Origin: Nitrospirota bacterium
GTDB lineage: Bacteria; Nitrospirota; Thermodesulfovibrionia; Thermodesulfovibrionales; JdFR-86
DNA: 33,761 nucleotides
Assembly: GCA_030638335.1 (NCBI GenBank)
Contig: DAOWET010000283.1
Location: forward strand, 1-33,761
Direction: 5' to 3'
Every line of letters starts with the position of its first letter. Position 1 is the stretch's first letter. Positions 8,043 to 11,957 of this stretch are shown here, one piece after another. The translations under genes and the position numbers were made by a program. Under the pieces are notes generated by a model. It had not been told where the DNA came from. It worked only from the letters and a program-made list of their open reading frames with translations, and did no database searches.

Positions 8043-8081
8043 GTAGACGGAACAGGATAAACAAATTGTGAGGAGGGGTTG

Positions 8082-8432
8082 ATGATAAAGAAAACGCTTG
8101 TAATCATGGTAATAATTCTTCTCGCTTTCAATGGCGTGGCGTTTGCTGCCTCTGGCGAGGTGGTAATGGAGAACACGATCTACGGTGGTATCATCGGCGG
8201 CATGCTTGGCGGGGCCTGGTATCTGCTTGACCAGGACGATGCAGGCAAGAAGCTCGGCACCGGCGTAGGCGTGGGCCTCATCGCGGGCTTTCTTCTTGGG
8301 CTTACCGATGTGGGGAGCTTTGTGGAGGTGGAAGACGGCAAGATGCACGCCGGAGTTCCGGCCCTCTACGTGGTGGAGACCGAAAGCAAGGGAACGTTCT
8401 ACTACACAAGCCTGCTTGGCATGAAGTTCTAG
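8082..8432 (+). CDS. Exported glycine-zipper small protein, unknown
   Basis: 116-residue protein. The ATG at 8082 is preferred over the TTG at 8079 because AGGAGG (8071-8076) lies 5 bases before it. A signal peptide (residues 3-20, ending GVAFAAS) is followed by a glycine-rich segment YGGIIGGMLGGAWYLL and a second one, LGTGVGVGLIAGFLLGL. Both fit glycine-zipper membrane helices. The C-terminal 45 residues are soluble and contain several aromatic residues. It probably resides in the inner or outer membrane. It has its own promoter and is followed by a palindromic element. No family is recognised. Confidence 0.75.
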   Translation: MIKKTLVIMVIILLAFNGVAFAASGEVVMENTIYGGIIGGMLGGAWYLLDQDDAGKKLGTGVGVGLIAGFLLGLTDVGSFVEVEDGKMHAGVPALYVVETESKGTFYYTSLLGMKF

Positions 8433-8433
8433 G

Positions 8434-8538
8434 TATCATGTCCAATGCACCGCATCTGCGGTGTTGCGCGGCACTCGCAGTAGCTAAAGTACAGCTTCGT
8501 GCCACGCGCCTAGCATCTGCAGCACCTTGAACATGATA
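8434..8538. repeat. 105-bp imperfect palindrome with 12-bp terminal inverted repeats
   Basis: The left end TATCATGTCCAA (8434-8445) matches the reverse complement of the right end (8527-8538) at 11 of 12 positions. Further inside, GCGCGGCAC on the left faces GTGCCACGCGC on the right, so the whole stretch can fold into a long interrupted hairpin with a short apex near 8480-8490. It starts two bases after the stop codon of the + strand gene and faces the convergent tmk gene. It may act as a bidirectional terminator or be a REP/MITE-like element. It is unrelated to the hairpin-repeat blocks at 3801, 11958 and 15815. Confidence 0.75.
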
Positions 8539-8600
8539 TTGTTTTACTAAGAATTGAACCGGGGCGGGGTCGTGGGCAATGGAAAGCCGCGACCCCGTTT

Positions 8601-9242
8601 TTATTTGCGGGTTAGCGCCTCGCGCATGGCCTCCATCACCAGGGTCGGCACCTCCTGCTTGCTCCCGCTTGCGTCAACGAGCTTGACGCGTTCCGGTTCC
8701 GCCTTTGCGATAGCTAAAAAACCCTCGCGCACGCGCTTGTGGAACTCCACCTGCTCCATCTCCAGCCGGTCCTGCTTGCCCGCGCCACGGTTGCGCTCAA
8801 GCCCCAGCTCCACGTCCATATCCAGCAGTACGGTGAGCTCCGGCTTGATCCCTCCGGTAACTATGCGGTCAAGCTCCTCAATGAGCCGCATGTCCAGTCC
8901 CCGCCCGGTGCCCTGGTACGCGGCGGTGGAGTCAGAGAACCGGTCCGTGATAACGACCTTCCCCTCCTCAAGCGCTGGCAGTATAAGCTCCTGCAGGTGC
9001 TGCCTCCGGGCCGCGGCATAAAGCAGCAGCTCGGTAACAGGCTCCATGGCCTGATGCGCCGTGTCCAGCAGAACACCGCGTATGCACTGGCTTATGGGAG
9101 TGCCCCCGGGCTCGGCCGTCATAATAACCTCATGCCCTTCGGCCTCAAGCGCCTCGGCCGCCATCCGCACGTGCGTGGACTTGCCCGCGCCCTCCCCGCC
9201 CTCAAAGGAGATGAACATGCCCTTTGAAGCCCTGGGGCCCAT
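8601..9242 (-). CDS. tmk: Thymidylate kinase
   Basis: 213-residue dTMP kinase converting dTMP to dTDP with ATP, essential for DNA synthesis. It shows the P-loop FEGGEGAGKST (residues 13-23), EPGGT, the DRF-type catalytic/substrate motif in VITDRFSDSTAAYQG, and an Arg-containing LID segment (RNRGAGKQDRLE). Length is normal for the family. Its ATG overlaps the stop of the upstream core-MetE-like gene by one base (TGATG), so the two are almost certainly translationally coupled. Confidence 0.95.
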   Translation of the reverse strand: MGPRASKGMFISFEGGEGAGKSTHVRMAAEALEAEGHEVIMTAEPGGTPISQCIRGVLLDTAHQAMEPVTELLLYAAARRQHLQELILPALEEGKVVITDRFSDSTAAYQGTGRGLDMRLIEELDRIVTGGIKPELTVLLDMDVELGLERNRGAGKQDRLEMEQVEFHKRVREGFLAIAKAEPERVKLVDASGSKQEVPTLVMEAMREALTRK

Positions 9243-11059: not shown

Positions 11060-11389
11060 TTAGTTGGTAGAAGTCTGCTTTGCTTCCTCAAGCTCGGTGC
11101 TCTCGCTGGTCACGATCTCAAGTGCGGTGCCCGCTGCCCAGCCTGCCAAAGATGAGCCGACCACAAAGAAGGCCGCTGAGCAGATCACGCCTGCCACCAT
11201 GGACAGTGCGGTTATTATCCTGGGCAGGATGGATATGTCAACAACGCCCCCCATGATCAGGTTCGAGATGTAGAGGCCTGCGGCCCCGCCGATCAGTGAG
11301 CCCGGGAACATTCCAACCAGAAGGAAAAGTACCAGCCCAACTCCTGTGCCTGCGTATAAGCCTTTGTTTGCCATTTCTCCGTGTTTCAT
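11060..11389 (-). CDS. Small multi-helix membrane protein, paralogue of the 11454 gene
   Basis: 109-residue inner-membrane protein. The start is set at 11389 (MKHGEMANKG) because AAGGAG lies 8 bases before it; an in-frame upstream ATG at 11443 would add 18 atypical residues. Three hydrophobic segments are visible: LYAGTGVGLVLFLLVGMF, SLIGGAAGLYISNLIMGGV, and the pair LSMVAGVICSAAFFVVGSSLAGW. It aligns along its length with the upstream gene (shared SLIGG-GL--, SLSM/ALSMVAGV, GT/SSL-GW-AG-A-EI). The two form a tandem duplicate. Function unknown. Confidence 0.75.
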   Translation of the reverse strand: MKHGEMANKGLYAGTGVGLVLFLLVGMFPGSLIGGAAGLYISNLIMGGVVDISILPRIITALSMVAGVICSAAFFVVGSSLAGWAAGTALEIVTSESTELEEAKQTSTN

Positions 11390-11453
11390 TTTGTGTACTC
11401 CTTTCGTATTATGTTTTTGCCTATCCATAAAAACCATAACCATATGTTCCTGT

Positions 11454-11816
11454 TTAGTGCCTTACATGGGCATGAGGCAGATGGTCGTGCACCCAGTGGG
11501 CGCTTCTGCCAGGGTGAGTTGCGATCTCAGCGGTCTTTCCCGCGACCCATCCAAGGGTTGTTCCGGCAATTGCAAAGGTAAGCGCTGCGACCGTCACGCC
11601 CGCCAGCATGCTAAGCGAGACGATGACCTTTGCCACCAGGGTGGACTCAACCGGGTATCCCATTATTGCGCCGGTTATATTGAGGCCCACGAGCCCGCCG
11701 ATGAGCGATGCGTTCAGAAGTCCGTATATGGCGAATACTGTGAGGGCCGCGCCGCATCCTGCTATTGCTATGTGCGAGGCCATCCTGCCTTTGTTTTTCT
11801 CAGTGAGTGCTTTCAT
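11454..11816 (-). CDS. Small multi-helix membrane protein with His-rich tail
   Basis: 120-residue membrane protein with a perfect Shine-Dalgarno (AAGGAGG) ahead of the ATG at 11816. Helices are at about 14-36, 38-52, 60-80 and 80-98. It aligns with its downstream paralogue: ASLIGGLVGLNITGAIMG against GSLIGGAAGLYISNLIMG, and VSLSMLAGV against TALSMVAGV. Unlike the paralogue it ends in HWVHDHLPHAHVRH, with five His in 14 residues, a possible metal-binding tail. The pair is probably one operon, separated by 64 bases. Function unknown. Confidence 0.75.
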   Translation of the reverse strand: MKALTEKNKGRMASHIAIAGCGAALTVFAIYGLLNASLIGGLVGLNITGAIMGYPVESTLVAKVIVSLSMLAGVTVAALTFAIAGTTLGWVAGKTAEIATHPGRSAHWVHDHLPHAHVRH

Positions 11817-11957
11817 CGTCTTTTCCTCCTTTTTTTCGTCTTCTGCCTTTAGAAAAGCATTTTCCGTGCCAAGTCTTAAGTGACTGAATAAAAATCAAAA
11901 TCCGGCATATTCCTTTGCGAAACAGCAAAAACGTCCGCGTTTATGAGAAAGCTGCAA

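Follow-up and report, generated by a model that had tools for sequence, protein, structure and literature searches.

Short hairpin-forming repeats of bacterial genomes have been described in several forms, and the element analysed here resembles each of them in part. Like MITEs, it is short, non-coding and intergenic, carries inverted repeats, occurs in many copies per genome, often at the 3' ends of genes, and empty sites (here for related units) show mobility. As opposed to MITEs, its family in the source genome was found with neither a parent IS nor a target duplication, the end sequences vary between copies, the arms covary and the core crosses phyla. REP/BIME elements tagged by GTAG or CGTC are likewise palindromic, of high copy number and situated 3' of genes, where the intergenic space is co-directional or convergent (PMC3733652). 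By the definition used here, i.e. a unit of 20–40 bp with an unpaired GTAG or CGTC tag (PMC3733652), they differ from the present family, whose unit measures around 105 bp (up to around 170 bp with modules), shows no recognised tag in the alignment, has layered internal loops and comes without a RAYT. Of note, CGTC REPs occur without a transposase, and some REP dimers lie inside longer palindromes (PMC3733652). The multicopy palindromic intergenic sequences of Geobacter and Pelobacter (PMC2700814, PMC2996986, PMC3543383) are also dispersed palindromic families, from a group that carries the present core as well; this likeness is one of description. Finally, integron attC sites have covarying arms with conserved unpaired positions, fold preferentially on one strand and follow stop codons, as does our family, which differs in having neither IntI nor a consistent GTTRRRY and in being dispersed instead of forming cassette arrays.

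The window, i.e. the whole stretch of 33,761 nucleotides of Nitrospirota contig DAOWET010000283.1 that was analysed, holds a single copy of the family according to searches with two covariance models, R1 and R2. Its parts and surroundings are as follows.

8434–8538, plus strand: whole palindromic element of 105 bp, in the family orientation, with its 5' side at the stop codon
8445–8530, plus strand: core as modelled (R1, 102.6 bits, E = 2.7e-26; R2, 52.8 bits)
8434–8445, plus strand: left outer arm TATCATGTCCAA, which differs from the outer arms of every other copy
8527–8538, plus strand: right outer arm TTGAACATGATA, complementary to the left outer arm at 11 of 12 positions
8453–8459, plus strand: left CATCTGC, the conserved internal-loop motif and 3-bp stem
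8513–8519, plus strand: right GCATCTG, partner of the left CATCTGC motif
8466–8474, plus strand: left side of the inner stem, GCGCGGCAC
8499–8509, plus strand: right side of the inner stem, GTGCCACGCGC
8480–8492, plus strand: apex GTA-GCTAAAG-TAC, the place of extra palindromic modules in other copies
8079–8432, plus strand: upstream host gene (117 aa) with a TAG stop codon at 8430–8432; the element starts 2 bp further
8565–8602, plus strand: separate terminator-like hairpin CGGGGTCGTGG/CCGCGACCCCG (8565–8597) followed by TTTTT, outside the element
8601–9242, minus strand: convergent downstream gene, thymidylate kinase-like (presumably tmk, a name given by eye from the sequence), with homologues in genomes of the family

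The original prediction of a nearly self-complementary element with 12-bp terminal inverted repeats, starting 2 bp past a stop codon and containing paired inner segments, agrees with these data, since a repeat search returned inverted arms of 26 nt each at 8434–8459 and 8513–8538 (73 % complementary) and both inner segments are in place. The element was also said to be too ordered for an ordinary terminator and to have no U-run. The former view is borne out. A hairpin with a T-run, of the usual terminator kind, follows further downstream (8565–8602) and is distinct from the element. The latter holds insofar as a terminator scan, with a GC-rich stem and a U-run as the criterion for an intrinsic terminator, flagged neither the element nor the weakly T-rich TTGTTTT at 8539–8545, immediately 3' of the right arm, yet this short stretch does exist. 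No Rfam family matched the element at its gathering score. With RNA parameters, the plus strand with flanks folds modestly better than chance (z = −1.85; 9 of 200 dinucleotide shuffles were equally good), while DNA parameters gave −19.1 kcal/mol for the plus strand and −25.0 kcal/mol for the minus strand of the 105 nt, as compared to −11.6 ± 2.7 for mononucleotide shuffles. The strong evidence that the element exceeds chance is its copy number and covariation. Elsewhere in the window, two neighbouring, mutually similar reading frames for small membrane-protein-like products lie on the minus strand at 11060–11816.

The source genome (2.78 Mb in 300 contigs, 92 % complete) contains around 20 strong BLAST copies of the element and about the same number of partial ones, so that the single copy that would have spoken against a dispersed element was not the outcome. 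The covariance model R1, built from 19 copies, yielded at least 114 matches and R2, representing another subfamily, at least 108; merged, and with the four weakest R1 entries dropped, these correspond to 155 or more places, distributed over 102 contigs, a lower bound as each search scored 150 candidates. Together with related mobile units elsewhere (see below), this substantiates the proposed dispersed palindromic nature. Contig ends lie near many of the copies, and the data suggest that the family repeats break the assembly of this genome.

The hairpin is layered and consists, from the outside in, of the outer arms, a CATC/TCTA internal loop, a 3-bp stem, a GTT/CCT loop, the inner stem and the apex. 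Two-sided changes are present at 24 of the 31 pairs in the 19-copy alignment, which was not fitted to a model. Among 74 distinct copies, 83 % of the cells are paired and 313 cells carry two-sided changes versus 115 in shuffles, with pairing falling to 20–43 % in slid controls; this alignment was fitted to the model and therefore leans toward the structure. In several copies the apex holds added palindromic modules, e.g. TCGGATCGACTCTGCCGA or an GGGGGTCACGGACCCC...CCAGCCCTTGGCTGG block, and nine copies (one with a shorter variant) have a second palindromic module, GGGGGTCACGGACCCCATTTAACTTGGGTTATATGCATTGAAAGGCAAAAGTAAGTCCAGCCCTTGGCTGG, inside the apex. Short units of the TCGGATCGAGTCTTCGA type, at times in tandem, were seen in the hairpin loops of six copies and also within the terminator-like hairpins, AACAAGGCCGCC...GGCGGCCTTGTT, that follow copies downstream. 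Many of the copies with CCCGAA arms have a similar, non-palindromic right-hand tail of around 70 bp (AGACAAGCGAACTTTCCTTTTTAAAA...CAACAGACAACGGCAAACTAAAGGGGAAAGG), so the dispersed unit may exceed the hairpin.

Some outer arms can be sorted into a few groups (TTCGGGCACG, TTCGGGGCTGAGG, CTTCCTGATT), and the others are unique. Outer arms that differ among copies and still pair would be expected if hairpins of the host had been there first and each copy had inserted into the loop of one, the arms then being target sequence. Palindromic modules nested in hairpins do exist, as do the REP dimers within longer palindromes (PMC3733652), and unique outer arms reach a mean pairing score of 11.7 versus 8.7 in shuffles, though not all lie above shuffles: among the 33 copies with a unique left outer arm, 14 score at least 14 and seven at least 16, the 99th percentile of shuffles being 15. 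On the other hand, over a third of the unique-arm copies pair no better than shuffles, the likely terminator of the window sits elsewhere, and the inserted units of Thioalkalivibrio and Halopseudomonas include the outer inverted repeats. Insertion into host hairpins is rather unlikely.

The position of the copies relative to genes is strongly biased. Based on gene calls from a simple codon-score gene finder, 54 copies of the source genome occupy convergent spaces, 35 co-directional ones and only 7 divergent ones. Of the 80 copies with a gene no more than 60 bp from the core on its 5' side, 74 have that gene ending toward the element, with a median of 16 bp between stop codon and core; an equally near gene on the 3' side occurs in only eight copies. 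Foreign copies behave similarly, i.e. 28 of the 33 with a same-strand 5' gene are separated from its stop codon by 40 bp or less, the commonest spacing being 18 bp, where the stop codon is the TGA of the arm TGACGG itself. The 5' neighbour of the remaining foreign copies points away, and 34 of 118 foreign copies overlap a reading frame, with gene calls that are rough and some frames that are probably spurious.

Such a placement directly after stop codons, with fixed polarity, conserved internal loops and covariation, is what one would also expect from a functional element at the 3' end of the RNA, i.e. a transcript-end hairpin (terminator, anti-readthrough or mRNA stability) selected in place, whatever its origin, all the more as REPs downstream of genes are plausibly transcribed (PMC3733652). 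Most of the hairpins, however, have no U-tract directly behind them, and the window copy is followed by its own terminator-like hairpin. The strand data point the same way. The strand that runs against the core orientation gave the better DNA fold in 100 of 106 copies of the source genome and in 111 of 116 foreign copies, although part of this bias reflects composition, since shuffles lean in the same direction (83 to 20). Paired positions of the source-genome copies contained 125 A.C versus 20 G.T oppositions in the model alignment, which leaves the mRNA strand with few G.U pairs and is as expected if the opposite strand folds; as foreign copies did not show this excess, we do not treat it as a pillar. 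Read on the opposite strand, the conserved CATCT loop turns into a tandem G.A mismatch, which is a stable arrangement. As the core in most cases runs in the same direction as the upstream mRNA, whose strand folds less well, the strand data speak mildly against a pure mRNA hairpin and for recognition of DNA. Together with the missing Rfam match, the 40 relatives of the same family and order that do without the element and the mobility of related units, this makes a functional 3'-end RNA element unlikely.

The original prediction held that a REP-associated transposase might mobilise the element. High copy number, palindromic structure and intergenic position agree with this idea, and Y1_Tnp genes are present in most of the 28 element-bearing genomes examined. 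The source genome (92 % complete), in contrast, gave no Y1_Tnp/RAYT (PF01797) match over the cut-off, its sole weak match lying, as judged by eye, on the strand opposite sulfotransferase-like reading frames. Three other element-bearing genomes had no match and two further ones only matches below the cut-off, and the element was found in the flank of just one of 20 RAYT loci. Adding the difference in length and the GTAG- or CGTC-tagged end that was not recognised, mobilisation by a RAYT transposase is very unlikely, and this part of the prediction is not supported. As regards ends shared with an autonomous IS, half-copies flanking a gene were not seen among the copies listed.

An attC site, or a cluster of attC sites without integrase, would account for a covarying imperfect palindrome that follows stop codons in a fixed orientation and folds better on the opposite strand, and GTTAGRC does occur at some right ends. 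GTTRRRY is nonetheless inconsistent, with most right ends reading GTCAGAC and the window copy having neither by eye, and the copies are scattered among convergent genes. No integron integrase (TIGR02249) was detected over the cut-off in the source genome, where the matches below it resembled ordinary tyrosine recombinases in both size and strength. The attC identity was rejected on this negative integrase search, and we regard it as extremely improbable.

Relatives of the element have a patchy distribution. A search with R1 of 40 further genomes from the same family and order gave no match, suggesting recent amplification or gain, while 14 other Nitrospirota genomes from a phylum-wide sample matched, several of them in many copies; marginal, single matches in two genomes at class level were left out of the members. 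The pattern CATCTGCNGYGTTGCGC-N30-60-GCCTNGCATNTG was present, among the matches listed, in Desulfobacterota, Geobacteraceae, Syntrophaceae, Gallionella, Sideroxydans, Tepidimonas, Thioalkalivibrio, Halopseudomonas, Alcanivorax, Gemmatimonadetes, Omnitrophota, Bacteroidales and others, with single phyla being provisional since many matches come from metagenome bins. Across the foreign copies the core is constant, whereas arms and apex vary and mostly remain complementary. A related core was also seen at positions 11789–11854 of a contig classed as viral (IMG/VR). The core sequence strings did not occur in the paper texts in which they were sought.

Evidence for mobility comes from two gammaproteobacterial genera. 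In Halopseudomonas pachastrellae, the core lies within a 266-bp unit with terminal repeats of about 21 bp (AGGGAAGCACTGAYTAATTCC) and two side-by-side hairpins, found in many copies per genome; the unit is exactly missing in a 96–97 % identical sister species, where CTAG is left at the site. In Thioalkalivibrio sp. ALMg11, the core belongs to an insert of 272 bp that has an inverted repeat of around 31 bp on its outside and is nested in another repeat (terminal CTAGGGAAACAC) where ten other copies read CTTG; this insertion replaced 4 bp without target duplication, and the host repeat around it has an empty site of its own in a third strain. Many Thioalkalivibrio strains harbour a repeat of around 285 bp with CTAGGGAAACACTGATCA ends, in about 20 places per genome among the matches listed and with an empty site in one genome. 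As judged from the empty sites, units holding the core move in both genera. Measured against what defines MITEs, inverted repeats are thus found at the ends of the window copy (11 of 12 bp) and of its relatives (31 and about 21 bp), and a target-site duplication may be represented by the CTAG at the Halopseudomonas junction, with none in Thioalkalivibrio and none recognised for the source-genome copies. These cases do not prove how the Nitrospirota copies moved; both units extend beyond the core, which may be no more than a passenger in them. At the tmk locus of genomes of the family, the gene on the 3' side of tmk is not conserved as a convergent neighbour, and neither the window copy nor any other copy of the source genome yielded an empty site.

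Regarding the window element, we consider it probable that it is one copy of a non-autonomous, dispersed, MITE/REP-like hairpin element that would be moved in trans and gathered in one direction behind stop codons, and it is best filed as a variant of this class. The family would have multiplied to at least 155 copies in its Nitrospirota genome, with an enzyme acting in trans presumably moving the non-autonomous copies, the window copy among them, which would come to lie directly behind stop codons in a single orientation. Since the family conserves a folded shape (covarying arms and the fixed loops CATC/TCTA and GTT/CCT), recognition most likely targets a hairpin formed by a single strand, which would probably be the one opposite the mRNA of the upstream gene. 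This general behaviour has precedents, as REPs occur behind genes and in convergent regions and those with CGTC do without a transposase (PMC3733652). It is tempting to speculate, albeit tentatively, that these are phylum-crossing mobile hairpins recognised by their shape, i.e. a constant loop scaffold with freely covarying arms, and not by their end sequence, and that they are inserted behind stop codons with fixed polarity by an enzyme that works on one of the DNA strands and is neither a RAYT nor an integron integrase.

Given that the core is present in many phyla, that a single small genome has 155 or more copies and that these are placed strictly behind stop codons, a dedicated or hijacked mobiliser is to be expected, for which neither a RAYT nor an integron integrase fits. 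The arms offer a natural archive of compensatory changes within a DNA palindrome. Moreover, many genes owe the form of their 3' ends to the element, and such repeats may break the assemblies of genomes of this kind.
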